A stretch of 64,000 nucleotides of DNA. Source: Bacteroidota bacterium. Its GTDB lineage: Bacteria; Bacteroidota; Ignavibacteria; Kryptoniales; JAKASW01. Within the stretch, counting starts at the first letter, position 1; each line of letters starts with the position of its first letter. The position numbers were made by a program, and so were the translations under genes. The notes beneath the pieces were generated by a model. It made no database searches, was not told the origin of the DNA, and saw only the letters and a list, made by a program, of their open reading frames with translations. The stretch covers positions 62,001 through 126,000 of the forward strand of contig JAKAGT010000007.1 of assembly GCA_021825585.1 (NCBI GenBank). Reading direction: 5' to 3'. Positions 13,890-61,161 of this stretch are shown one piece after another.

Positions 13890-15890
13890 TTGAAAGGCAG
13901 CCGGAAGCCTGTCGCCCAGACCTCTTTCAAGTCTGTAAACAATAAGGTCCCGTCAAATGCATCCACGCGATTCGAGCGGCTTGACTTCCTGATAGCCGGA
14001 AATCTTGCCGCCATTTCGTTTCTCATCTACTTCTTCACGATGTCAAGGAGCATTCCTTATATCGATGGTGGAGAACTCACAACGGTTCTCTGGACGCTCG
14101 GCATCGCGCATCCGACCGGGTATCCGCTTTTCACGCTGTTGGGATATGCGTTCGTGCACATTCCCATCTCCAGCGAGGTTGCGGTCCGCGCAAATTTATT
14201 TGCGGTCGCATGTACGGCACTTGCCGGAGGCCTTTTCTATCTCGCAATCCTGCGTGCTCACTGGGCGCTCGGCGCCGGCGATTCGGCTTCAACCGCTGCC
14301 TCTCAATCAAAGAAAACACGGGGCGAAAATCGCGATCGGTCCCTGGGAAACGATTCAACCACCGGATTCGTCGTGAGGCTGGCTTCTGCTGATGCGGCCC
14401 TTTGCCTGATATTTTCGGCTACATTTTGGGATCAGAGTACTTCTATCGAGGTTTACCCCCTTCAGCTGGCGCTGTTTGCGCTGATATTGATTTTCTGGCT
14501 TAAGTTCTACGCCCTGCCGACAAGACGGCAGGCATTTCTGGCGGGCTTGACGTTAGGGCTTGGTTTTTCAAATCACATGACGACCGTGCTGACCGTCCCC
14601 GCAATCCTCTTTCTCCTGGTCCTGAATTACAGGGAAAAGAGAATGAAGACAAAGCTCCTTTCTTTCACAGCGGCAGGAGCGGCATTGCCGCTTCTTATTT
14701 ACATCTACCTTCCGATTCGCGCAGCTCAGTCCCCGATTCTCGATTGGGGAAATCCGGATAACCTGCAGAGGTTCATCTGGCATGTAACAGGAAAACAGTT
14801 CAGGACGTGGATGTTCAGTTCATTCAACGTTTTCCGGCACCAGCTGGGAGTCTTCTTTTCCAGTCTTCCATCTGAATTCACCATCAGTCTCGTAGTTGTC
14901 GTCCTCGGAATTATCATAGCACTCCTTTCCCGACGGAGATATTTTTGGTGGGCGATCCTGCTCCTCCTCGGCGATATTTTTTACGCCGCCAATTACAACA
15001 TCCACGACATTTTAAGCTATTTCCTTCTGGCATACATAGGGCTCACACTCTTTGCCGCTACCGGTTTTGAATTCATTATCCAACAGATCATCAGGCTCTC
15101 GGGGACAAAATATACCGTCGCGCTGCTCGTCCTGTTGTTGCCGGTGGTTTCAGCCGCTTTGAATTACAGTAACGTAAACGAGAGCGATGATTTTGCGGTC
15201 GAAAGGTACACCCGAGATATACTTACCAGCCTGCCGCAGAATTCGCTTGTGTTGTCCTTCCAGTGGGACGATTTCGTGTCCGCTTCTCTCTACTACCAGC
15301 ACGTAGACAAGGTAAGGCCAGACATAATTGTTATCGATAAAGAGCTCCTTCGAAGATCCTGGTATGCAAATCAGATACACACCCGCTATGCATATCTCTT
15401 CCCGAATCCCGATCCCATCTTCTCGGCATACATGGATAACCTCCGCCTTTTTGAGAACGGACTCCCCTACGACCCGAACAGCATCGAGCACACTTATTCT
15501 GATTTCATTCGTGAGATAATTCACGGAGCACTCCGAAACGGGAGAGACGTATTCGTCGGCCCCGAAATGGAAAACAGATATCTTTACGGATACAACAAAG
15601 TGCCCTACGGCCTCCTCTACGAACTCACGAATGACAGTTCATATACTTCATACGGTCAGGAGGGGCTAAACGGTTTTCGCGCAGCAAAGAAAGTGGATAA
15701 CGTGTATTCTCATCAGATTGAAAACTTCTACAGTCAAATGTTTCTCGCACGTGCGGCGTACGAATACAGATACGGACATTTGAGACGTACCCTGGTCTGG
15801 CTCGACAAAACGCTTGAAGTCGATCCTGGGTCACAGTCTGCCCTGACAGCCAAGATCGGGATACAACAGCGGCTGGGATACGCACGATGA
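13890..15890 (+). CDS. DUF2723 polytopic membrane protein, putative protein O-glycosyltransferase
   Basis: Membrane protein of 666 residues with ten or more hydrophobic segments. Near residues 55-85 it carries the DUF2723 hallmark GELTTVLWTLGIAHPTGYPL, which resembles the luminal acidic motif of GT-C mannosyltransferases. A large extracytoplasmic C-terminal domain ends in a TPR-like helix pair. I take the TTG at 13890, preceded by TGAGG, because it follows glnE by 10 bases and gives a sensible N-terminus. Family members (TMEM260-like) transfer sugars to proteins or lipids; that activity is inferred. Its end overlaps the next gene (ATGA). Confidence 0.82.
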   Translation: MKGSRKPVAQTSFKSVNNKVPSNASTRFERLDFLIAGNLAAISFLIYFFTMSRSIPYIDGGELTTVLWTLGIAHPTGYPLFTLLGYAFVHIPISSEVAVRANLFAVACTALAGGLFYLAILRAHWALGAGDSASTAASQSKKTRGENRDRSLGNDSTTGFVVRLASADAALCLIFSATFWDQSTSIEVYPLQLALFALILIFWLKFYALPTRRQAFLAGLTLGLGFSNHMTTVLTVPAILFLLVLNYREKRMKTKLLSFTAAGAALPLLIYIYLPIRAAQSPILDWGNPDNLQRFIWHVTGKQFRTWMFSSFNVFRHQLGVFFSSLPSEFTISLVVVVLGIIIALLSRRRYFWWAILLLLGDIFYAANYNIHDILSYFLLAYIGLTLFAATGFEFIIQQIIRLSGTKYTVALLVLLLPVVSAALNYSNVNESDDFAVERYTRDILTSLPQNSLVLSFQWDDFVSASLYYQHVDKVRPDIIVIDKELLRRSWYANQIHTRYAYLFPNPDPIFSAYMDNLRLFENGLPYDPNSIEHTYSDFIREIIHGALRNGRDVFVGPEMENRYLYGYNKVPYGLLYELTNDSSYTSYGQEGLNGFRAAKKVDNVYSHQIENFYSQMFLARAAYEYRYGHLRRTLVWLDKTLEVDPGSQSALTAKIGIQQRLGYAR

Positions 15891-16993
15891 CTCTGCTTCA
15901 TATTCTGGAGGTACTGGGCGTATTGTACTTGATGGAACTGGCCTTCTTCAGCCGTGCCGCCCGGCGGTCGCGAATGGCGCACCGAAGCGCGCCAACACCA
16001 CAGGGTTACCCGAAGGTTTCCGTCGTTGTTGCAGCAAAGGATGAGGAGAGGAATCTTCCTGCTTGTCTGCAATCATTATTGAATCTGGCTTACCCGAAGG
16101 AGCTGCTTGAGATCGTCGTTGTGAACGATCAATCAGCCGACTCGACTCCACAAATCATAGATGAAGCGGCACGTGAAAGCCGCTTTGTCAAAAGAGTCGA
16201 TGCCGTCGAGAGCGTGTCGACTCGCGGCAAGGCGAACGCTCTCGCCCAGGGCATTGACCGGGCGCAGGGGGAGCTAATCTTCCTGACAGATGCCGATTGC
16301 GTTGTACCACCCACCTGGATTAGCGAGACGCTGAAATATTTTGACGATGACACAGGAATTGTAGGAGGGGTTACGCTGATCTCAAATGCTTCACAGCGTG
16401 TTTACGGCATTCAGGCACTCGACTGGGATTTTCTGCTTACCGTTGGCGCCGGCGCCGCTACGATAGGACAACCCGTCGCGTGTCTTGGAAACAACCTGGT
16501 CTTCAGAAAGAAGGCATACGAAGAAGCCGGAGGTTACCGCAAAATCAAGTTCAGCATTACGGAAGACTTCGCACTCTTCAAGGCAATCGCCCATTCGCAC
16601 AAATGGAAATACAAGTTCCCGATGGATAAGAAGAACCTCGTAGAGACTCTCCCCGTCCCTTCGCTGAAAGAGGTTTTTTTGCAAAGGAAGAGATGGGCAA
16701 CCGGTGGCAAAGATACCGGTTTGTTCGGAATTGTGACGCTCGCTCCAGGCTTCCTTTTCCACTGGGCACTCATTGTATCTCTCTTTTATTCTCCCGCGGT
16801 TTTCCTGATTTTTTTCCTTTTGAAGACAATGGTGGACGGTGCTTTCGTCTCGCCGACACTCCGCCTTTACGGAAAGATTGCGCACTTGAAATTTATAGTT
16901 TATTTTGAGATTTATTATTTGCTATATGTTGCGATTCTCCCTTTTTCTGTCTACCTGGGCAGAGCGATAATTTGGAAAGGACGAAGGTATTAG
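15887..16993 (+). CDS. Membrane-anchored family 2 glycosyltransferase
   Basis: A GT-A processive-type synthase of 368 residues. An N-terminal helix is followed by VSVVVAAKDEERNLP, the metal-binding LTDADCVVP, an ED of acceptor type (SITEDFALF) and QRKRWATGG, a QxxRW motif. Three or more C-terminal membrane helices follow. The pattern resembles beta-glycan or icfG-like synthases. It overlaps the DUF2723 gene by 4 bases and ends directly before the M50 gene, so it probably builds or extends the glycan used by that cluster. Confidence 0.88.
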   Translation: MTLLHILEVLGVLYLMELAFFSRAARRSRMAHRSAPTPQGYPKVSVVVAAKDEERNLPACLQSLLNLAYPKELLEIVVVNDQSADSTPQIIDEAARESRFVKRVDAVESVSTRGKANALAQGIDRAQGELIFLTDADCVVPPTWISETLKYFDDDTGIVGGVTLISNASQRVYGIQALDWDFLLTVGAGAATIGQPVACLGNNLVFRKKAYEEAGGYRKIKFSITEDFALFKAIAHSHKWKYKFPMDKKNLVETLPVPSLKEVFLQRKRWATGGKDTGLFGIVTLAPGFLFHWALIVSLFYSPAVFLIFFLLKTMVDGAFVSPTLRLYGKIAHLKFIVYFEIYYLLYVAILPFSVYLGRAIIWKGRRY

Positions 16994-18004
16994 ATGTCTG
17001 ATTCGTCTGCCGGAAGCGGATACGAGTATACGGATCTGACTCCTGTTGTGACATGGCGGGAACTGAGGCTGCCTGTCCATATTTCCCTCTTCCTGATCAC
17101 ACTCGTCACCACAACGATGGCAGGTGTGGAATGGGTCGGGCGGGATCCGCTCAACCTTCAAAATCTTTCCATGGGCTTGCAATACAGTCTTTCGCTTTTG
17201 CTCATCCTCGGCTCGCATGAATTCGGTCACTTCTTCTATTCGCTGAAGCATCGTGTGAAGGCCACTCTCCCGTATTTCATACCGCTCCCCGTCATTCCGG
17301 GAATGCTGAACTTCGGAACTCTCGGGGCGGTTATCCGTACCAGGACTCCCGTCCCTTCGCGAAAAGCCATCTTCGACATAGGCGTCTCCGGACCGATCGT
17401 CGGCTTCATTGTGAGCATCGGCGTATTGATTTTCGGATTCACTCACCTCCCTTCAAGGGCATTTCTCCTTCAGATTCATCCGGGCTACGACTTCGCAAAC
17501 AATACCGTTCCGGGTTCTGCGGGAATCCCGCTTGCTTTCGGCAACACGATCCTCTTTAAACTCCTCGAGCTCATTTTCACAAATCCCCGCACGGAATTTG
17601 TCCCGCCTATGACGGAAATCTACCACTACCCGTTTCTCTGCGTAGGATGGTTCGGGTTGTTTGTGACCGCTATGAACCTCCTTCCCATCGGTCAATTGGA
17701 CGGCGGGCATATGATCTATGCCATGTTCGGACGCGCGCACCGGAAAATAGCGAGAATCTTTTTCGCCGTAATACTTGCGATCGGTCTGCTGGGCCTTCTG
17801 CCCCTCGTGGGAGTTAACCTTGAGATCGGCTGGACCGGTTGGCTTATGTGGTGTCTGATCCTCTTTCTCGTTGTAAAGCTCGATCACCCCCCGATAATGG
17901 ATCCTTCCCCGCTCGATGCCCGGAGAAAAGTGGTCGGGTGGTTGACGATTCTCATATTCCTGGTATCTTTCTCACCAATCCCATTCACAATCGCACTGAG
18001 GTAA
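16994..18004 (+). CDS. Site-2-type intramembrane metalloprotease (M50)
   Basis: Polytopic protease of 336 residues. The zinc motif HEFGHFF is near residue 75 and the second motif LPIGQLDGGHMIYAMFG near residue 235, the S2P arrangement. FIPLPVIPGMLNFGTLGAVI matches the plant/cyanobacterial S2P group that lacks a large PDZ insert. It could process a membrane-bound regulator or lipoprotein. No anti-sigma substrate is adjacent; the next gene encodes a lipoprotein, only 2 bases away. Confidence 0.9.
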   Translation: MSDSSAGSGYEYTDLTPVVTWRELRLPVHISLFLITLVTTTMAGVEWVGRDPLNLQNLSMGLQYSLSLLLILGSHEFGHFFYSLKHRVKATLPYFIPLPVIPGMLNFGTLGAVIRTRTPVPSRKAIFDIGVSGPIVGFIVSIGVLIFGFTHLPSRAFLLQIHPGYDFANNTVPGSAGIPLAFGNTILFKLLELIFTNPRTEFVPPMTEIYHYPFLCVGWFGLFVTAMNLLPIGQLDGGHMIYAMFGRAHRKIARIFFAVILAIGLLGLLPLVGVNLEIGWTGWLMWCLILFLVVKLDHPPIMDPSPLDARRKVVGWLTILIFLVSFSPIPFTIALR

Positions 18005-18006
18005 TC

Positions 18007-18813
18007 TTGCGGAAAGTATTTTTAGTTTTTTTTCTTAGTCTGATGGTAGGGGCATGCCAGAAGGCGAACGATGTAGTAGTCGATTCCTCGGCTCCAATCA
18101 ACGCTCAGCTTACGTATTTCGACAAGGACAGCCTTGACGTCGCTCAATATTTGAGCAATTCCTCTCTCAAGCCGACGATTAGCGACAGCTTTCAGATTCT
18201 TTTGAGCTCTTCAAAGGATTTTTCGCATCTTAATGTCCAGGTGCAAGACGATTCCGGAATAGTCCTTAACAATGCTGACTTCACGAACGTCAACGGGAAT
18301 AGAGTCGCAGGCGCGATATCTACGACACTGTCCAGCGTATACGTCGGTAACCTCACTTACGTATTCACGGCATATAACACACATGGAGCCTCCGGAAACT
18401 ATGCGGAGAAAAAACTACGATTGTTCAACGCCAAAGACGCCGGTCCGGTCATCGACAGCGTGTCAATGCCCGATTCGCTTATCCTTCCACAAACAAACAG
18501 CCTTGTGTTCGATATATATGCATACGTTACTGACGCCGCCGGACTGAGCGACGTCTCGAATGTTTATTTCGACGTTGTGAAACCTGACGGGACGCCCTCA
18601 ACAGGCAATCCCTTCATGATGTACGACGACGGCGGTGCCGCGGGTCTCCAGGTTGGAGACGATGATAGAGTAGCACATGACGGTACGTACACGCTGTCTG
18701 TCCAGCTTCCGGCCGGGACGGCCGTTGGCACCTACACATTCACTTTTCACGCCGTGGACCGCAGCGGTGTTTCGAGCGCACCAGTTTCCCATAAGATCAG
18801 GATCTATCAATGA
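18007..18813 (+). CDS. Putative outer-envelope lipoprotein with Ig-like repeats
   Basis: I chose the TTG at 18007, preceded by GAGG, because it yields a lipoprotein signal peptide (RKVFLVFFLSLMVGAC, lipobox VGAC). The longer frame from 17839 would run through the M50 gene. The mature part of about 250 residues is beta-rich, with repeated aromatic/Gly strands and a C-terminal segment (GTYTFTFHAVDRSGVSS) like bacterial Ig or cadherin-like domains. No enzymatic motif. It overlaps the next gene by 4 bases, so it is probably co-secreted with it. Confidence 0.72.
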   Translation: MRKVFLVFFLSLMVGACQKANDVVVDSSAPINAQLTYFDKDSLDVAQYLSNSSLKPTISDSFQILLSSSKDFSHLNVQVQDDSGIVLNNADFTNVNGNRVAGAISTTLSSVYVGNLTYVFTAYNTHGASGNYAEKKLRLFNAKDAGPVIDSVSMPDSLILPQTNSLVFDIYAYVTDAAGLSDVSNVYFDVVKPDGTPSTGNPFMMYDDGGAAGLQVGDDDRVAHDGTYTLSVQLPAGTAVGTYTFTFHAVDRSGVSSAPVSHKIRIYQ

Positions 18814-20339
18814 AAATCGCCTTCGTTCTCACGGCGCTCTGCGCGCTCGCCAGCGCCAACGCGCAATCCCTGAAAGAGACTTACAAGCTTGACGGCCAGC
18901 TATCGCAGCCATCCAGCAACACCGTGAATCAGATACTCATAAGAAATGGAACAGTCTACCTGGCAACCAACAAGGGACTCAACCTGTCGAACAACGGAGG
19001 ATCGAGCTTCCAGACCGACTTCGGACCGAAAGGTCCTACGGGAGTCAGCACGAACGCAATTGCGGTCAAAGGCGACACAATAGTTACCGCAGTGTCCACC
19101 ACATTCGAGCAAAACGGAACTTCGTATCCCCAGGGAACCGGTCTGTATGTTTCTACTGATGGCGGAGGGACATGGACACATGAGCCCCAGAGCCTCGATT
19201 CCCTGTCAGATTCTACCGTGACGTTCGGTCACAACGTGTTGAAGGCCCTTCCCATAACCACGGAGATCAACAACATTACCTACTCACTGGCGTTTTACGC
19301 CGGTTATCTCTACGCGGCAAATTTCGCAGGCGGGTTGAGAAGAAGTGCCGACCTCGGCAGAACCTGGCATAGGGTTGTACTTCCGCCTGATTACCTCAAT
19401 TACATTAATGCTGACAGCACGTACTCGTTTCAGCTCTCTCCCATTGCCGGAAATATTACCACCGAAACGAATTACAATCATGAAGCTTTTTCCCTGTACG
19501 CAGACGGCGACAGTGCGCTCTACGTCGGTACTGCAGACGGAATTGACAAGACGACCGATAATGGATTCTCATGGCACAAGTTCAATCATCAAAATGAAGG
19601 AAGTCCCATGTCGGGCAACTTCGTAGTATCGATAAATGCGCAAAACTATGGCAGCGTTCACAACATCTGGGCTGCAACCGTTAATGCTAACGATCCTACC
19701 GAGGTTCCGGCGCTCAGCTACACCTCCGACGGGGGCGCAAGCTGGCATTACATTCTCGCCGGACACTTCTTTCACAGTGTTGCCTTCCAGGATTCCATAG
19801 TTTACGGAGCTTCCGATGACGGCCTCTTCAGGACCCCCGACCTCGGACAAACCAGCGAGGTCGTCACCAACGTACTGGACACGGCCACGAATCAACAGAT
19901 TCTTTCACCGGCTTTCTATGCCGTGGCGGCAGAAGGAGACTCAGTATGGGCCGGTTCCGGTGACGGAACGGCAATAGGGATTGACAACGGCGGAGGATTC
20001 CAGCTGAGCAAATGGAACGTGCTCAGGACCTTCGTTCCTGTCGATAACCAGAACCTCACTTATTTCTATCCTAACCCCTTCTCGCCCCGGCTTGATGTGG
20101 GAAGAATTCACTTCAGCGTGACTTCGGCCAACGGCCGCGTGACAATCAGGATTTACGATTTTTCAATGCACGTAATCAGAACTTTGCTCCAAAATGCTCA
20201 ACGCATGACCGGCGAAAATGACGCAGTATGGAACGGGTTGGACGACGGCGGGCGGATGGTCGACAACGGAGTCTACTTCTACAGCGTGAGCGTAAATAAT
20301 GGAAATCCGCTTTGGGGAAAAATATTGGTGGTCAGATGA
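18810..20339 (+). CDS. Secreted Asp-box protein with FlgD/type-IX-like C-terminal domain
   Basis: Exported protein of 509 residues. The signal peptide MKIAFVLTALCALASANAQS is followed by a beta-propeller with at least five Asp-box-like motifs (STDGGGTW, SADLGRTW, TTDNGFSW, TSDGGASW and a degenerate TPDLGQTS). The last about 90 residues form a FlgD-Ig/sorting-like domain (FYPNPFSPR, VTIRIYDFS, WNGLDDGGRMVDNGVYFYS) ending GKILVVR. Such C-terminal domains target cargo to type IX or related outer-membrane export. The ATGA overlaps on both sides show tight coupling to the lipoprotein and the PorV-like genes. Ligand unknown. Confidence 0.82.
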   Translation: MKIAFVLTALCALASANAQSLKETYKLDGQLSQPSSNTVNQILIRNGTVYLATNKGLNLSNNGGSSFQTDFGPKGPTGVSTNAIAVKGDTIVTAVSTTFEQNGTSYPQGTGLYVSTDGGGTWTHEPQSLDSLSDSTVTFGHNVLKALPITTEINNITYSLAFYAGYLYAANFAGGLRRSADLGRTWHRVVLPPDYLNYINADSTYSFQLSPIAGNITTETNYNHEAFSLYADGDSALYVGTADGIDKTTDNGFSWHKFNHQNEGSPMSGNFVVSINAQNYGSVHNIWAATVNANDPTEVPALSYTSDGGASWHYILAGHFFHSVAFQDSIVYGASDDGLFRTPDLGQTSEVVTNVLDTATNQQILSPAFYAVAAEGDSVWAGSGDGTAIGIDNGGGFQLSKWNVLRTFVPVDNQNLTYFYPNPFSPRLDVGRIHFSVTSANGRVTIRIYDFSMHVIRTLLQNAQRMTGENDAVWNGLDDGGRMVDNGVYFYSVSVNNGNPLWGKILVVR

Positions 20340-21265
20340 AAAAAACACTTTTTGTCCTGTTATTCTACTCGGTCACCTTTGCCCAGAGCTACCCGGGGAG
20401 TTTCGCTCGAATCGGACTTAACGCGAAGGGAATGTCGATGGGCAATGCAATATCAGCCATGACTACCGGCAACGTGTACCCGTTTTACAACCCGGCGCTC
20501 GCCTCGTTCCAGAATGGCGGAAGCGTCTCAGCTTCGGTCGCACTAATGTCTCTCAACAGGCAGCTGAATGTCATCACGTACACTCAGGGACTTGCTCCAA
20601 CTGCGGGACTGGCCCTCGGAGTGATAAACAGCACCGTGTCAAACATCGACGGAAGAGATGCTGACGGCGTGCATACATCGAATCTCTCGACAAGCGAGGA
20701 CCTGCTCTTCTTCAGCTTCTCAAACCAATTTCTGGATGCGTTTTCACTCGGCGTCAGCTTGAAAATGTACTATTACAATCTCTATTCAGGCATGTCTGCA
20801 ACCACAATAGGATTCGATGTCGGCGGTCTTTACAAACCGACCGATTATCTCTCGATCGCCGTCGTTGCCACCGATCTCGGGGAGTCATACCATTGGGACT
20901 CCTCGAAGCTTTACGGCACGGACGGTTCTAACTTCTCAACGCCTTTCCCGCACATATTTAAAGTAGCCGCTTCCTACAGTCTCCCGGCGATTCACTCTTC
21001 CGTTATGGCGGAATACGATATTGCCCCATCGCCTCTTAATGGGCTAAGAGGCGGAGTGGAGTTTTCTCCGCTCGACGTGCTTGTCCTGAGAGCCGGCTTC
21101 GCCGCCGCCAACGAGCAATATGTAGGCACCAAAGTAACTCCGACATTTGGCTTCGGTGCCAAAATAGCTTTCCTTGATCTGACGCCGCAGCTCGATTATG
21201 CATATGTTTCCGAGCCATTTTCCCCCTACGGAATACAAACTATATCACTAATCTTCGAGTTCTAA
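20336..21265 (+). CDS. PorV/PorQ-like outer-membrane beta-barrel protein (first copy)
   Basis: About 309 residues. The ATG at 20336 overlaps the previous stop (ATGA) and gives the signal peptide MKKTLFVLLFYSVTFAQS. The start of the mature part (SFARIGLNAKGMSMGNAISAM) and NVYPFYNPALASF are typical of the PorV/UPF0164 family. It continues as alternating amphipathic strands and ends ISLIFEF, with a terminal aromatic. In type IX systems PorV shuttles cargo to the attachment complex; the upstream cargo gene fits that role by context only. Confidence 0.82.
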   Translation: MKKTLFVLLFYSVTFAQSYPGSFARIGLNAKGMSMGNAISAMTTGNVYPFYNPALASFQNGGSVSASVALMSLNRQLNVITYTQGLAPTAGLALGVINSTVSNIDGRDADGVHTSNLSTSEDLLFFSFSNQFLDAFSLGVSLKMYYYNLYSGMSATTIGFDVGGLYKPTDYLSIAVVATDLGESYHWDSSKLYGTDGSNFSTPFPHIFKVAASYSLPAIHSSVMAEYDIAPSPLNGLRGGVEFSPLDVLVLRAGFAAANEQYVGTKVTPTFGFGAKIAFLDLTPQLDYAYVSEPFSPYGIQTISLIFEF

Positions 21266-21270
21266 ATTCC

Positions 21271-22176
21271 ATGAAATCACTTAGCTTGTCTTTCGCACTT
21301 CTCCTTGTTGCAACATCGTCTGCTTTCTCTCAGGCCGGGAGTTCGGGAATGCAGATTCTGAAACTTGGCTATTCTGCACGCGACCTCTCTCTCGCGGGCT
21401 CCGCAGATGCAGTCACGAACGAACCGATCGCAATTTATACGAATCCCGCCGGTCTCGCATTCGGCAAAAATGCCCCCGGTATCGGACTGAATGTCATGCT
21501 GACACATAGGACGTACATAGCCGGAACTACGGTCGACATGTTCGGGACGAGCTTCAAAGCTGGAACGATGTCGTTCGGCACTAGTCTCCTTCTCTCGAGC
21601 GTCCCCGACATTCAGATCAGAACCACCCCCGGGGACCCACAGGGGACTTTTTCTGCCAAAGACTTCGTATTTGCGGCAGGTGCTGCAAGGACATTCGGAA
21701 AAGTGGACGTCGGCGTTTCGGCAATGTATCTCTACGAGAAGCTGTTCGTGTATGAATCGACAGGGTTGGCATTCAACGCAGGACTGAAATACTCTCCCGC
21801 CGAGAACGTTCAATTGGGCTTATCTACCGGAAACCTCGGTTCATCTTCTGCCATGATCTCCGAGAAAATAGCGCTTCCTGTATTCGTGCGGCTGGGTGGA
21901 AGTTATAGGATGCCTGTCGGATCGAACTTCGACCTGACAGGATTTGCAGGCGCCGCGACATTTAAGTCCGGCGGGATTACTCCCGCCCTTGGTGCCGAAT
22001 TGAGTTACGATAATCTTATCAGATTCAGGGCAGGCTACGCATCGGGGAGCGAAATGACGGGATTCTCGTTCGGAGCGGGCGTCAACTACCAGTTCCTCAG
22101 ATTCGATTATTCATACATCCCGATGAAGCTCGACTTCGGCAACAGCCAGACGTTCACACTGTCGTTCTATCTCTGA
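21271..22176 (+). CDS. PorV-like outer-membrane beta-barrel protein (second copy)
   Basis: Protein of 301 residues with a signal peptide (MKSLSLSFALLLVATSSAFS). MQILKLGYSARDLSLAGSAD and PIAIYTNPAGLAF are the PorV N-terminal hallmarks. The rest is barrel-like and ends TFTLSFYL. It lies five bases after the first copy and is clearly distinct from it in sequence, so this looks like an old paralogous pair rather than a recent duplication. Possibly a dedicated partner of the secreted Asp-box protein. Confidence 0.82.
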   Translation: MKSLSLSFALLLVATSSAFSQAGSSGMQILKLGYSARDLSLAGSADAVTNEPIAIYTNPAGLAFGKNAPGIGLNVMLTHRTYIAGTTVDMFGTSFKAGTMSFGTSLLLSSVPDIQIRTTPGDPQGTFSAKDFVFAAGAARTFGKVDVGVSAMYLYEKLFVYESTGLAFNAGLKYSPAENVQLGLSTGNLGSSSAMISEKIALPVFVRLGGSYRMPVGSNFDLTGFAGAATFKSGGITPALGAELSYDNLIRFRAGYASGSEMTGFSFGAGVNYQFLRFDYSYIPMKLDFGNSQTFTLSFYL

Positions 22177-22177
22177 G

Positions 22178-23302
22178 ATGCCAATAGGTTCTTCCTCGAT
22201 AGATGTTCTGATAATCGTTTCCTCCGATCCACGGTATGACGCGAGAAGCACGAAGTATCTGAGAAGCCTTCTCTCATCCGGATTCAAGGCAAAGCTTGTG
22301 GGAGCCGCCTCAGATGGAACTGGAGATAGGACAGAGGAACTTGTGCGCGTCCCGATCAGTTCAAGAGGCGGCAAGGCATTCTTCATGCAATTTTATCAGA
22401 AAGTCGTACCGGAAGCAATGAAGGTTTCGGCGAAGCTGGTCATCGCCGGGGACCTTTTTTCCCTTCCGCCCGCAATCATAAACAAGCAGCGACATTCTCA
22501 CAGGGGGCGTCCGGTAAGACTTGTGTACGACTCGAAGGAGCTGTACGAAGCGCTTCCAAGCCTGAAAGTCAAACGAACCAGCTTCCTCTTCTGGAATCTC
22601 GTTGAGAAATCGTCGCTCAGATATGTCGATGGGGTCTTCACGGTAAACCAGTCAATAGCGGATATCCTGGAAGCTAAGTGGCATCTACCCACGACCGTCT
22701 TGAGGAATGTCCCGAATAAGCAGACGGCACGCCGTTATATTCAAAAGAGCTTTGACAAAATCTTTTTGACATTCTCAGGCGGACTCCAGGCCGGACGCGG
22801 CCTGATTGACCTTCTTAAGCTTATCAGCATCCTTCCCGCAAAATATGAAATTAGATTCGTCGGCGACGGATCGATGAGGGAGGACTTACTCCAACGGGCA
22901 TCCGAATTGCGTATTCAGGAGAGGATCCATTTTACCGGAAGAGTCCGGCAGGAGGAAGTGATAAACGAACTGTCGAAAGCTCACATCGGGATTTATCTGA
23001 TGGAAAACACCGGCCTGTGCCACTACCTCTCCCTTCCAAACAAACTCTTCCAGTTCATTTCCGCGGGCCTGCCGGTAATCGTACCGCACTTTCCAGAAAT
23101 GGAACGGATTGTGAAGGAATACGATATCGGGGCGGCTGTTGACACCACTGATCTTGACGGGGTCGCAAAAACAGTCCTGGAAATTACCGCAGATCCGGAG
23201 AGCTATAGCCGGTTCTCGAAGAATTCCGAAAATGCTTCAGAAGTGCTTAACTGGCAGGCTGAAGAGACGAAATTCGTTGAAGCGATCGCCCGCTTAATTT
23301 AA
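22178..23302 (+). CDS. Family 4-type glycosyltransferase
   Basis: GT-B fold transferase of 374 residues. The N-terminal domain starts with IDVLIIVSSDPRYDARSTKYL. The C-terminal domain carries FSGGLQAGRG and RFVGDGSMREDLLQ, and a nucleotide-sugar-binding segment with ENTGLCHYLSLPNKLFQFISAGLPV. The E-x7-E pattern is relaxed. It closes the plus-strand envelope operon and its end overlaps the convergent response-regulator gene by 9 bases. Acceptor unknown. Confidence 0.85.
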   Translation: MPIGSSSIDVLIIVSSDPRYDARSTKYLRSLLSSGFKAKLVGAASDGTGDRTEELVRVPISSRGGKAFFMQFYQKVVPEAMKVSAKLVIAGDLFSLPPAIINKQRHSHRGRPVRLVYDSKELYEALPSLKVKRTSFLFWNLVEKSSLRYVDGVFTVNQSIADILEAKWHLPTTVLRNVPNKQTARRYIQKSFDKIFLTFSGGLQAGRGLIDLLKLISILPAKYEIRFVGDGSMREDLLQRASELRIQERIHFTGRVRQEEVINELSKAHIGIYLMENTGLCHYLSLPNKLFQFISAGLPVIVPHFPEMERIVKEYDIGAAVDTTDLDGVAKTVLEITADPESYSRFSKNSENASEVLNWQAEETKFVEAIARLI

Positions 23303-24655
23303 GAGACCGAATTTCTTCCTTTTTTCCCACAAAGTTTTCCTTGTGACCCCGAGTTGCTTCGCGGACGCTTCCAGATTGAAGTTATTCCACTCCAATACTC
23401 TCTTCAGATACTCTCCTTCGATCTGCTCAAATGACAACCCCTTCGGAAGGTACAGCCCGTCATCGAGCGAAGGGGCAGCAGAAATGTTTGAAAGCGAGAT
23501 TTCGTCGGCGTCAATATGGTCCTTCTCCGCAAATATCATCGCACGCTCGATGACATTTCTCAACTCGCGGACGTTTCCCGGCCAGTCGTGAGCCAGCAGT
23601 TTCCGTTCTGCTGCGCCGCTGAAGCCCTTCACCTGCTTCTTGAACTTCAGGTTGAAGTCATTTATGAACTGCCTGCCGATCAAGATCACATCATTTTCCC
23701 TGTTGCGCAACCGTGGGACGTTCAACGATACGACGTTGATCCTGTAGAATAGATCGCTCCGGAATTTGCCAGCAACAACGTCTGTTTCCAGATCGGAATT
23801 CGTGGCCGAAATAACCCTGAGGTCGACAGGAATTTCCTCAAGCCCACCGACTCTTCTGATTCTGCGGTTCTCGATGAATGACAAGAATTTAGCCTGAAGG
23901 CTCAGGTCCATACTCGTAATTTCATCGAGCAGGACTGTTCCCCCGCTCGCTACTTCGAGGAGTCCCTTCTTCGCCGTCTTTGCGTCTGTGAAAGCGCCCT
24001 TTTCATAACCGAACAACTCCGCCTCCAACAGGTTGGACGGAAGAGAGGCACAGTTGATTTCAAGATAGCGTCTCTCGGCAATCGGGCTCATGTAGTGGAT
24101 TACACGCGCCACTAGGTTCTTTCCGACGCCACTTTCGCCGCGCAGCAATATGACGGAGCCCGTAACCGGCGAGACCCGGCGTATGAATTCCCGAATTTCC
24201 GAAATGGGCTTGCTCTCCCCGATTAGCGAGTCGTACGAATAACGAGACTTGAAGCCCGACTTTATTTCCGCGACTTCGGTCCGAAGCCGGCCTATCTCTA
24301 CCGCCCTGCCGATAGCCAGCTTTAACTCTTCGAAATTTATCGGCTTCAGCAGATATTCAAAAGCGCCGCTCTTCATCGCGCGGACTGCCGTATCTACCGC
24401 CGCCTTCCCCGTCACCAAAATCACGGGCATAAGTCGTTCCAGTTCCCTCAACTTCTCGATCAGACGAATCCCGTCGATTTCCGGCATCATGACGTCACTG
24501 ACGACCAGGTCCGGATATTCGATCTTTATCGCTTCAATGAGTTCGTTAGGATGGGAAAAGGACTTCACGTTCAGCTGCTCATTGCGCAGCCTGTACTTCA
24601 CAAGCTTTATGATGCTCTCGTCATCATCGAGTAAATAGACCAGAGGTGGCGGCAT
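23294..24655 (-). CDS. Sigma-54-dependent NtrC-family response regulator
   Basis: DNA-binding activator of 453 residues. The receiver domain carries LLDDDESI, phosphoacceptor D54 (VVSDVMMPEIDG) and K104. The AAA+ domain has Walker A GESGVGKN (173-180), the sigma-54 contact loop as GAFTDA (220-225) rather than canonical GAFTGA, and Walker B VLLDEI (241-246). The C-terminal Fis-type HTH includes NLEASAKQLGVTRKTLWEKR. No cognate histidine kinase is adjacent. A possible promoter lies so close to the ATG that a leaderless transcript is conceivable. Confidence 0.93.
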   Translation of the reverse strand: MPPPLVYLLDDDESIIKLVKYRLRNEQLNVKSFSHPNELIEAIKIEYPDLVVSDVMMPEIDGIRLIEKLRELERLMPVILVTGKAAVDTAVRAMKSGAFEYLLKPINFEELKLAIGRAVEIGRLRTEVAEIKSGFKSRYSYDSLIGESKPISEIREFIRRVSPVTGSVILLRGESGVGKNLVARVIHYMSPIAERRYLEINCASLPSNLLEAELFGYEKGAFTDAKTAKKGLLEVASGGTVLLDEITSMDLSLQAKFLSFIENRRIRRVGGLEEIPVDLRVISATNSDLETDVVAGKFRSDLFYRINVVSLNVPRLRNRENDVILIGRQFINDFNLKFKKQVKGFSGAAERKLLAHDWPGNVRELRNVIERAMIFAEKDHIDADEISLSNISAAPSLDDGLYLPKGLSFEQIEGEYLKRVLEWNNFNLEASAKQLGVTRKTLWEKRKKFGLLN

Positions 24656-57090: not shown

Positions 57091-58359
57091 TCAGTCTGTG
57101 ACTTCAACGCCTGGCTCCATTACCGCACCCATGAAGAGGATTGTGTTGTCGCGCTTCTCTTTGATCAGGAACGCAAACGGTCTGTTGACATTAACCATTA
57201 TCGGTCCGCTATGCTCCCCGATTACAACTGTTTTCCAAACTTCGACCACCGTCACCGCAGCAGCCTCGGTTCCCTGCTCATTCACGTCAATATAAGTACT
57301 GTGCAGCACCTCAGATATGTAGAGCCCACCTGCCGGATTTATCTTCGTAAAATTCGCTCCGTCCGAAAAAGCGATTCCCATGCCCATTTGTGAAAGGGCT
57401 TTGATCAAGCTCGTCGAGTATTTCAACTTGAACTTCGGCATTGTCAACTGGACATCCTCAGGCCTCAGTTCAGAGACGATGCTGTTGACTTCACTCTGGC
57501 TTATCGTGCCAATTGTGTTCATTGCCGATGCAGCATTTGTTGGGAGCAAAATTAGCATACTGTAATCGCCCCGGCCATAAGGAAGCTCCACGGCAGTAAG
57601 ACTCTGGTCGGCGTAATAGTTCAGCGTGTCATGGACTACCATCATTGAATCGGATTCCGTGGAGCCGTTAGCCAGATAGAATGTCCCGGGTTTAGTGTAC
57701 TTCGAATCGAAAGTATACTTCCAGGTTCCGTTGAAATACAGGGCGTTGATCAGGAACATCACCGCTCTTGGATCAATCGGCGGCTGAATTATCTTCGTGA
57801 CCTTGTTATTAGTATCGTCGCTCACCCAGGAGTTGATGATGTCGGCGGCACCAGGGTTGCTGAAATCGAGGGCACTCACCCTTGCATCGAAATAAGTCGA
57901 GTCGACATCAAGAAAGCTGTCTTCGACTGCAAATGTGTCCCGATACCAGATTGAATTCGCGATGTCGAATTTCACGCCCGGATCCAGGCTGCTGAAGGTC
58001 GCCATAAGGTTCTGGTATGACAGGTTGATTTCATCGTTTGAGAGGCCGTTCAGCCCGAGCGTTTGCTGCATGTCGTCGTAAGTCTGCCCCAGAGCGCCAT
58101 TCAGTGTCATTGCAAGAGCCATAGAAACGCTGAAGGGAGAGATGAAGAAATTTTTCCCCTGTTCCTGGGCAGCCACTTGATCAAAGAGTGAGGTCGAGAA
58201 AGAGTTGCTTGCAGACTCGACTTTCTGTAAGGTGGCGCTGCCAGGTGGATTTGGGCCGGAAGCCTTGGTGTACGGCGAGGTCACATCGCTGCAACCATAG
58301 TAGAGTCCGGCGGTCGCAAAGGAAAGACAAGCTAAAACTATTCCGAGACTGCGTTTCAT
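57091..58359 (-). CDS. Serpin family protein, predicted lipoprotein
   Basis: Protein of 422 residues. ATG 58359 after GGGGGAG gives a lipoprotein signal peptide with lipobox-like YYGC (LYYGCSDV). The rest is a complete serpin fold. NSIWYRDTF, FLINALYFNGTWKY and FLIKEKRDNTILFMG are conserved serpin motifs. The hinge EQGTEAAAVT is intact, so inhibitory activity is plausible. The reactive loop runs into VEVWKTVVIGEHSGPIMVN, about six residues longer than in alpha-1-antitrypsin, so P1 cannot be fixed. It would protect the surface against serine proteases. Confidence 0.9.
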   Translation of the reverse strand: MKRSLGIVLACLSFATAGLYYGCSDVTSPYTKASGPNPPGSATLQKVESASNSFSTSLFDQVAAQEQGKNFFISPFSVSMALAMTLNGALGQTYDDMQQTLGLNGLSNDEINLSYQNLMATFSSLDPGVKFDIANSIWYRDTFAVEDSFLDVDSTYFDARVSALDFSNPGAADIINSWVSDDTNNKVTKIIQPPIDPRAVMFLINALYFNGTWKYTFDSKYTKPGTFYLANGSTESDSMMVVHDTLNYYADQSLTAVELPYGRGDYSMLILLPTNAASAMNTIGTISQSEVNSIVSELRPEDVQLTMPKFKLKYSTSLIKALSQMGMGIAFSDGANFTKINPAGGLYISEVLHSTYIDVNEQGTEAAAVTVVEVWKTVVIGEHSGPIMVNVNRPFAFLIKEKRDNTILFMGAVMEPGVEVTD

Positions 58360-58527
58360 AACACTCCCCCGTTTTTTAAACGCACAATCTTCAGGTTCTC
58401 GAAAAGTCAGTACCTGTTCTTGACCTGTTTCTGTTAGCTTAAGGATGAGAAATCTATCTTTCAGGCCGCGCGTCCGGCGCTTTCCATGCGCAGGCCGACG
58501 AGAAGGTGCTACCCGTGCAACCACACT

Positions 58528-59163: not shown

Positions 59164-59450
59164 TACCAGTACCCTGTGGTAATGCTCACGTCGCCGTAAA
59201 CTCGTGCGCTGCATGCAACCCGTTCATTCTCAGTGTAATTGCCCTTCGACATGAGCTTGACCTCGCATTCGGTCGGCTCGGATAGGTTATTCATGCCTTC
59301 TACTATTTCAACTTTGCACCACCCGCAAACACAGTCGCCGCGGCACGAGCTGCCGAGGGGAACACCGTTGACACGGGCAGCCTTGAAAAGGGTTTCGCCA
59401 TTTTTTATTTCGACCACTTTGCTCAAGGGGACAAACCTAACCTTTGGCAT
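59163..59450 (-). CDS. [2Fe-2S] ferredoxin (plant/adrenodoxin-type)
   Basis: 95 residues with ligands in SSCRGDCVCGWC (C-x4-C-x2-C) and the fourth Cys in VACSARV. Start ATG 59450 overlaps polX by 14 bases. Possibly an electron carrier for the neighbouring thioredoxin-like ferredoxin or a hydroxylase-type enzyme; no partner enzyme is adjacent. Confidence 0.92.
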   Translation of the reverse strand: MPKVRFVPLSKVVEIKNGETLFKAARVNGVPLGSSCRGDCVCGWCKVEIVEGMNNLSEPTECEVKLMSKGNYTENERVACSARVYGDVSITTGYW

Positions 59451-61161
59451 CGTTAAGGAACTTCTTTACCTGCTTCGCTGTCATCGTGTTCAACAAATCA
59501 TCTCTTGTCAGCCAACCCTTTCTCGCGATGAACACCCCATAAATGAAGTCCGCCAATCCGGCAACCGAATGCGCGTCCGGGTTAATCGAGAATTTCAGGC
59601 CGGCCGCTTTCGCCCTTTTCAAGTGCCTCCAGTCAATGTCAAGGCGGTGAGGGTTAGCGTTGATCTCGATGACCTTCTTATTGCGCGATGCAGTCTTAAT
59701 GATCTCGTCGATGTCGACTTCATACCCCGGACGCCCGAGGAGGAGCCTTCCGGTCATGTGGCCGAGGAAAGTCAAATACGGATTCTTCAGGGCTGCCACG
59801 AGACGCCTCGTCGCCTCATCTTTTTTCATCGTGAGCTTGCTATGAACAGATCCAACGGAAAAATCCAGCTTCTTGAGTGCAGCATCGCTGAAGTCCAGCC
59901 TGCCGTCCGATAGGATGTCGACCTCGCTCCCCTTGAAGACGAAAAAGTCTTCGAGCTCACCGTTCAACTTGTCGACCGCGTCGGACTGCTCCTTCAAACG
60001 TTTTTCATCGAGTCCGTTTGCATAGAAGGCGGCTTTGCTGTGATCACTCAATCCCAAATACTGAAGGCCCAGTTTGCGGGCCCCGGCGACCATGGCTTCG
60101 AGTGTGTCCGCACCGTCGCTCCAATTCGTGTGAACATGGAATAAACCAATTATGTCTTCGACCTTTACGAGTTCGGGAATATCGCCCTTCGAAGCTGCGG
60201 TTACCGCATCCTCGTCGTCGCGGAGTTCAGGCGGAACAAACTGAAGGCCTATCTCACCAAAGATTTCCTCTTCCGTTTCGAAACGAATCTTGTCCCTCCC
60301 CTTCTTGAGTTCGCGCATGCCGAGATTATACCCCCGTGAAGATGCGTATTCCTTCAGCCTGCCGAAAAATTCTTTGCTCCCGGTTGAATGGAGAACGGCA
60401 AAGGGATACTCCGCCTTGTTAACAATGATGAACTCGACGGGAATGCCGTTTTCCCAAATTACCGACACGAGGTCATCCTGGACATCCTTAACCTCCTTCA
60501 CACCCTTCAATTTCTGGAGCGCAGCAAAGAGTCTGTCCCGCTCACCCGAGCGAAAGTGGATAACGCAATCGATGTCCCGAATAGTCTCCCGTCGGCGCCT
60601 GTAGCTTCCTGTAAATTGATAATGTTCCACGCCGGTCAACTTCTCCAGCGCCTGCGATATGTGCAACGACGTCTCGTGGATCACGTCGAGCAGCCTATAT
60701 TCGCTATTAGCCTTCATCCTTCTTATTTCGGCCAGTACTTTGTCTTGCGTCTTCTTTCCAAACCCCTTCAACGCGACAAGTCGATTCTCGTTGCACGCAT
60801 ATTCGAGCTCCGAGACAGATTTTATATCCAGCTGTTCGTACAGGGCCCGCACTTTGTTCGGGCCAAGCCCCTGGATTTCGAACAAATCCGGAAGACCCGC
60901 CGGAAATGAATTCTTCAGCTCTTCCAGGTAACCGAGTTTGCCTGTTTCCACAAGCTCCGTCAGTTTCTTTGACAGCGCCTCCCCGACTCCCGGAATCTTT
61001 TTCGCCTCGCCCTTCGAAATCAGATCCACCGCATCGAGGCGCGACTGGCTTATCGAACGAGCGGCCCGGGAATAAGCGTTGACCTTGAACTTATCTTCTC
61101 CTTTAAGCTCCAGAAGAGAAGCTATTTCTTCCAGCACTTCTACGATTTGCTTCTTATCCAC
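59437..61161 (-). CDS. polX: DNA polymerase X family (PolX) with PHP exonuclease domain
   Basis: 574 residues. The N-terminal HhH8 region (KIPGVGEALSKKLTELVETG) and polymerase X catalytic region (TGSYRRRRETIRDIDCVIHF with Asp-x-Asp) are followed by a C-terminal PHP domain starting FHVHTNWSDGADTLEAMVAG with NPDAHSVAGLADF. A GTG start at 61161 forms TAGTG with the upstream stop and has an AGGGGGA site. Repair role is typical. Confidence 0.95.
   Translation of the reverse strand: MDKKQIVEVLEEIASLLELKGEDKFKVNAYSRAARSISQSRLDAVDLISKGEAKKIPGVGEALSKKLTELVETGKLGYLEELKNSFPAGLPDLFEIQGLGPNKVRALYEQLDIKSVSELEYACNENRLVALKGFGKKTQDKVLAEIRRMKANSEYRLLDVIHETSLHISQALEKLTGVEHYQFTGSYRRRRETIRDIDCVIHFRSGERDRLFAALQKLKGVKEVKDVQDDLVSVIWENGIPVEFIIVNKAEYPFAVLHSTGSKEFFGRLKEYASSRGYNLGMRELKKGRDKIRFETEEEIFGEIGLQFVPPELRDDEDAVTAASKGDIPELVKVEDIIGLFHVHTNWSDGADTLEAMVAGARKLGLQYLGLSDHSKAAFYANGLDEKRLKEQSDAVDKLNGELEDFFVFKGSEVDILSDGRLDFSDAALKKLDFSVGSVHSKLTMKKDEATRRLVAALKNPYLTFLGHMTGRLLLGRPGYEVDIDEIIKTASRNKKVIEINANPHRLDIDWRHLKRAKAAGLKFSINPDAHSVAGLADFIYGVFIARKGWLTRDDLLNTMTAKQVKKFLNDAKG

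Follow-up and report, generated by a model that had tools for sequence, protein, structure and literature searches.

What does a compact run of eight same-strand genes do when it sets a predicted secreted protein and two PorV-like outer membrane barrels among genes for sugar transfer? The run (13890-23302, plus strand) lies within a window of 64,000 nucleotides, by which we mean the whole stretch of DNA analysed (G000:C86:62001-126000), in a 4.97-Mb assembly, and encodes in order a TMEM260-like protein, a GT2 glycosyltransferase, an M50 protease, a lipoprotein (LP), a propeller protein (ASP), two PorV-family barrels (PV1 and PV2) and a GT4-type glycosyltransferase (Table 1). An initial annotation, made from the window alone, had read the genes from GT2 to GT4 as a possible dedicated secretion-glycosylation module in which a cargo, its putative shuttles and enzymes that could make an anchoring sugar are encoded together.

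Table 1. Operon genes, with positions counted from the first nucleotide of the window.
Gene	Predicted product	Position	Strand	Support
TMEM260-like	Protein O-mannosyltransferase, membrane	13890..15890	+	PF11028 9.9e-31; ATGA overlap with GT2
GT2	Glycosyltransferase	15887..16993	+	PF00535 2.9e-27
M50	Site-2-type protease	16994..18004	+	PF02163 3e-17
LP	Lipoprotein, predicted beta-sandwich domains, TTG start	18007..18813	+	Invariant Cys17; model pLDDT 86
ASP	Single beta-propeller and seven-stranded T9SS/FlgD-like C-terminal domain	18810..20339	+	FlgD_ig above cut-off; model mean pLDDT 85.9
PV1	PorV-family outer-membrane barrel	20336..21265	+	PorV_fam 81.9 bits; profile vs PorV 6h3i E 6.7e-6; own clade
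PV2	PorV-family outer-membrane barrel	21271..22176	+	PorV_fam 119.4 bits; profile vs PorV 6h3i E 2.6e-24; own clade
GT4	GT4-type glycosyltransferase	22178..23302	+	PF00534 1.9e-16

Profile matches agreed with the families named in that annotation for GT2, M50, ASP, GT4 and the two PorV-like proteins, PV1 lying just below the family cut-off. The operon it had drawn from 15887 to 23302 was real but started too late, the TMEM260-like gene having been overlooked. The tight packing it described was borne out by the coordinates, with 4-nt overlaps reading ATGA between the TMEM260-like and GT2 genes (15887-15890) and between ASP and PV1 (20336-20339), a third 4-nt overlap between LP and ASP (18810-18813) deduced from the ORF coordinates, and spacing of 0-5 nt elsewhere (GT2-M50 0, M50-LP 2, PV1-PV2 5, PV2-GT4 1). 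From the starts of its homologues, LP most likely begins at the TTG at 18007, 2 nt behind the M50 stop, rather than at 17839 as in the mechanically called ORF. Scans for promoters (10 predicted, 8.0 in shuffled sequence) and terminators (14 predicted, 10.7 in shuffled sequence) remained at chance level. A sigma-54 response regulator (23294-24655) converges with the GT4 gene with a 9-base overlap and resembles the PEP-CTERM regulator model (378.9 bits, cut-off 502.6). Farther along the window we observed a serpin (57091-58524; PF00079, 1.9e-109) and a PolX-type protein with HHH, DNA polymerase beta thumb and PHP domains (59437-61161).

We examined gene order in 40 loci taken around the best M50 homologue, covering 11 of 12 genomes of the same genus, 4 of 7 of the same order and 25 of the class. 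M50 was followed by ASP in 35 of these loci and by ASP-PV1-PV2 in 34, the exceptions being one short contig (L047) and five loci with M50 alone (L065, L066, L068, L069, L070); LP was matched by sequence in 31 of the 35 loci with ASP behind M50. LP-ASP-PV1-PV2 was also intact in 12 of 12 additional loci, including six class genomes with M50 on another contig. Because gene order was conserved in 34 of the 40 relatives' loci and in all 12 further loci, a chance arrangement is excluded. Of the order that the initial annotation had wished to see tested in relatives, the core is kept far beyond the genus, and this LP-ASP-PV1-PV2 core is an ancient unit.

In other classes, where 17 untruncated loci were available (L168 was too short for the comparison), PV1 was observed in all 17, PV2 in 10, and LP in 9 with one weak match among them. 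PV1 stood ahead of LP and ASP in two of the other-class loci (L154, L157), and no LP was detected in six loci of the sortase-poor, Balneola-like kind. Clustering of 75 fully flanked loci placed PV1 in 71, PV2 and LP in 65 each and M50 in 61, and a PV1 profile match was present in the remaining four (L155, L156, L158, L161). With PV1 in every other-class locus and PV2 and LP variable, ASP and PV1 make up the constant pair, often accompanied by PV2 and LP. M50, which had a homologue in 143 of 149 relatives, is a frequent neighbour outside the irreducible unit; we rejected it as an essential partner because in six class genomes the unit is intact although M50 lies on a different contig. A DUF1207-type protein was observed between GT2 and M50 in one locus (L060:8115-8936), and its family occurred in 32 of the 75 fully flanked loci and was absent from the present window. 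A literature search of open-licence papers returned no description of the LP-ASP-PV1-PV2 unit.

The two barrels are relatives of PorV, as in the canonical PorV shuttle. PV2 passed the 90-bit cut-off of the broad PorV/PorQ family model NF033709 (PorV_fam), and PV1 fell just under it. Unlike canonical PorV, both lay far under the cut-off of the canonical PorV model (24.0 bits for PV1 and 44.2 for PV2, cut-off 250), and they were likewise short of the PorQ model (39.7 and 81.3 bits, cut-off 220). In a tree of 78 PorV-family proteins (24 PV1, 23 PV2, 12 PorQ, 6 canonical PorV and 13 other paralogues), each group fell on one side of a branch, with support of 100/100 for PV1, 99/99 for PV2, 100/99 for PorQ, 100/100 for canonical PorV and 96/88 for the other paralogues. 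As judged from this phylogeny, PV1 and PV2 are old, distinct clades apart from PorV and PorQ. The candidates PorQ and canonical PorV were rejected for either barrel on the model scores and the tree.

ASP has 509 amino acids, and its predicted model consists of a single propeller followed by seven C-terminal strands. The FlgD_ig score was 34.3 bits (cut-off 27), the type A C-terminal domain model TIGR04183 gave 19.8 bits against a curated cut-off of 23, and the C-terminal part weakly matched the PorU and PorZ models at their ends. Other matches fell far below their thresholds, at 18.4 bits for the PorZ model (cut-off 260) and 48.5 bits for the NCBIfam glycosylhydrolase NF045728 (cut-off 175). 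In the fold comparison PorZ was one of a large number of chains scoring near Z 25 and was outranked by GH74 xyloglucanases, while hundreds of chains resembled the propeller and WD40 proteins reached a nearly equal Z, so that as a means of settling function the comparison led nowhere. The same was true of LP, whose Cys17 was invariant across 20 aligned rows and whose model matched many Ig-like proteins, the best being RbmA (E 9.3e-9, TM about 0.3).

Conservation and copy number were more informative about ASP. Mean column identity was 48% for ASP across 28 aligned sequences, compared with 43% for PV1 and 42% for PV2; identity to the window ASP was 34-72% in 27 aligned rows and 89% in L032. A single match was found in 164 of 167 ASP-positive genomes. 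Being well conserved and almost always present as one copy, ASP resembles a machine part and not a variable cargo, and the cargo label of the initial annotation suits it less well, since it also has barrels of its own and is more PorZ-like than cargo-like. One same-genus locus (L034:6008-6574) carried a partial second ASP copy of 48% identity just upstream of the full-length gene.

The sugar-transfer genes were less constant. TMEM260 and GT2 lay directly upstream in 11 of 11 genus loci, and TMEM260 was not found in the other 29 of the 40 loci. GT4 stood directly behind PV2 in L067 and in every locus of the genus (11 of 11) and of the order (4 of 4), and a GT2 family member occurred in 48 of the 75 fully flanked loci. 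The exact TMEM260, GT2 and GT4 partners are genus- or order-specific and the glycosyltransferases lie outside the irreducible unit; as constant parts of the unit they were rejected outside the genus and order across the 40 loci. The flanks of the unit in the class hold GT2, GT4, GT9, polysaccharide deacetylase, flippase-like and FemAB-like genes. In one genome (G118) a large membrane protein that looks sugar-transferase-like by eye was observed directly behind PV2 (L060:14412-15893), on the opposite side of the unit from the TMEM260 of the window.

To place a number on this neighbourhood we compared 13 module loci with 13 control regions, each 60 kb off on the contig of its locus. Spurious high-GC ORFs led us to leave out two pairs (L155/L185, L158/L186), so that 11 loci remained, and proteins over 700 aa were removed from both sides, leaving 124 flanking and 119 control proteins. 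GT2 matched 16 of the 124 flanking and 3 of the 119 control proteins (p 0.003, with proteins of the same locus not being independent). GT2 and GT1 together matched 25 of 124 flanking proteins and, among the matches listed, at most 4 of 119 control proteins (p 4e-5, treating non-independent proteins as independent), the GT1 control count being at most 1 from the best 25 families listed. The joining of sugar enzymes to a cargo and its shuttles was therefore right in that the neighbourhood is glycan-rich, but there is no fixed gene set.

The source genome has type IX components that such a unit would draw on. We found SprA (an open frame of 2369 aa; PF14349, E 4.1e-47), two PorU matches above cut-off, PorV as a PorV-family protein next to one of the PorU genes (275 bits), PorQ (239 bits, cut-off 220) and PorZ (E 1.8e-100). 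The genome had 24 PorV-family matches in total, and the T9SS C-terminal domain model matched 117 times. The initial annotation had tied its reading to type IX core genes elsewhere in the genome, to the C-terminal domain in other proteins and to a conserved gene order; of the core genes that it named sprA was found, the domain was present and the core order was conserved, so that the reading is not refuted on its own terms. The secretion-glycosylation module is partly supported, but the supposed cargo is more PorZ-like than cargo-like and the link to sugar is looser than claimed. Since the genome has its own SprA, PorU, PorV, PorQ and PorZ, ASP adds to PorZ and does not replace it. The two full-length PorU matches (G000:C13:91041-94370 and G000:C31:105726-109070) set this assembly apart from the other 20 genomes searched, with one each above cut-off; with 4% contamination in the assembly, the pair may reflect a mixed bin.

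Across 395 genomes of the phylum, given here as raw counts that ignore shared ancestry, ASP was observed in 167, PorZ in 248 and SprA in 303. SprA was present in all 167 ASP genomes, and ASP was absent from 136 of the 303 SprA genomes, including the SprA-bearing class families f5, f8, f11, f15, f16 and f19. PorZ accompanied ASP in 145 of the 167 genomes, and ASP as a PorZ orthologue or replacement was rejected on these 145 genomes with both and on the PorZ of the source genome. The other 22 ASP genomes had no PorZ match and all had SprA. PorU was over cut-off in 2 of these, partial in 6 and without a match at E 1e-30 in 14, so that SprA and ASP are retained in 14 genomes that match neither PorZ nor PorU. 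Other T9SS substrates remain in the PorU-poor ASP genomes, as seen from C-terminal domain matches; the 20 PorZ-less ASP genomes without PorU over cut-off had 5-58 of these each and 3-5 PorV-family matches. Exactly three PorV-family matches were found in 9 of the 14 PorU-less genomes, compared with the 24 of the source genome. In five of these nine (G239, G303, G361, G420, G455) two extra PorV-family genes lay directly beside ASP, and in G354 the two were 131 kb apart. PorQ was above cut-off in none of the three PorU/PorZ-less ASP genomes searched. ASP is kept where neither PorU nor PorZ is matched, and anchoring by the known sortase therefore cannot be its whole purpose.

From these observations we propose that ASP and PV1, usually with PV2 and LP, encode a second, sortase-independent outer membrane surface complex that the type IX translocon would serve, a proposal about as likely as not to be right. 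ASP would cross the inner membrane through Sec and the outer membrane through SprA, with its C-terminal domain as guide. Known type A cargo is described as processed by PorU. We infer that ASP would instead escape the PorU sortase, with PV1, probably together with PV2, taking its C-terminal domain and holding it uncleaved, as PorQ does PorZ. LP would join the complex at the outer membrane, and the surface-held propeller may bind a cell-surface glycan, the station running parallel to PorZ-PorQ. The ASP propeller is probably glycan-binding; with glycan-synthesis genes surrounding the unit in the class, a glycan is its likeliest ligand. In the published systems, PorZ is reported to bind anionic polysaccharide, a surface glycan (PMC8545088), and to sit on PorQ (PMC8545088, PMC10202324), the C-terminal domains of PorU and PorZ are reported to stay uncleaved, and cognate PorV-like barrels are suggested to shield C-terminal domains against cleavage (both PMC10202324). 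The PorZ-PorQ pair of Porphyromonas gingivalis is like the proposed complex in joining a secreted propeller with a T9SS-type C-terminal domain to a PorV-family barrel. It differs in that PorZ has two propellers and ASP one, and in that ASP occurs alongside PorZ and PorQ in the source genome yet persists elsewhere without PorZ and PorU matches.

Several other readings compete with this one. The unit and the glycan genes may be neighbours by history only, with the glycosyltransferase context uninformative on function; this is a substantial possibility, though short of an even one, for the unit survives away from glycan genes and TMEM260, GT2 and GT4 are inconstant, and what weighs against it is the glycosyltransferase enrichment over regions 60 kb off, in a test that takes proteins of one locus as independent though they are not. 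Alternatively, ASP could be a dedicated cargo, for example an adhesin, with a shuttle pair of its own for display and without any glycan role, which we think rather unlikely. The arrangement would resemble type B substrates and PorP/SprF in Flavobacterium johnsoniae, described as secreted proteins encoded beside their own barrel, with the linked barrel genes downstream (PMC12618676), and a constant core of just ASP and PV1 suits it. Adhesins usually vary, however, whereas ASP is conserved and nearly always single-copy; the barrels here are of the PorV family, and the ASP domain is FlgD/type A-like, a domain type whose members are described as all using PorV (PMC12618676).

It is less probable that ASP is a surface enzyme, a glycoside hydrolase or lyase, trimming the polysaccharide whose synthesis its neighbouring genes direct. 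The generic propeller fold and the rank of GH74 above PorZ make an enzyme possible, GH74 xyloglucanases being the best structural matches, and both the NF045728 match and the enrichment of glycan genes nearby point the same way; that match is nevertheless far under its cut-off, and the propeller matches are unspecific, as the WD40 proteins at near-equal Z illustrate. We consider it highly improbable that the unit belongs to an outer membrane assembly complex of the BAM type. The extracellular dome of the Bacteroidota BAM (BamG-K) is described as combining a FadL-type barrel, BamG, with surface lipoproteins and a propeller (PMC12578637), a set of parts like that encoded here, but BamG is called unlikely to work like PorV in the same source, ASP has a T9SS-like domain, and ASP is limited to SprA genomes in our sample.

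Beyond the sortase-independent surface complex itself, we tentatively suggest, with less confidence than in the complex, that ASP and its PorV-type barrels may be an ancestral type IX station that Ignavibacteria-, Rhodothermia- and Balneola-type lineages would have kept and Bacteroidia-type lineages lack. Such a station would combine a glycan-binding propeller with a dedicated pair of shuttles for a type A-like domain. It would work beside PorU-PorZ-PorQ, and where the sortase branch has been lost it may be one of the main destinations left to the translocon. If the proposal is true, the type IX translocon supplies not one surface system but two, the second beside the PorV/PorU route, in lineages where the type IX system has been little studied, and ASP with its own PorV-family pair would offer a direct test of the suggested protection of C-terminal domains by barrels (PMC10202324).
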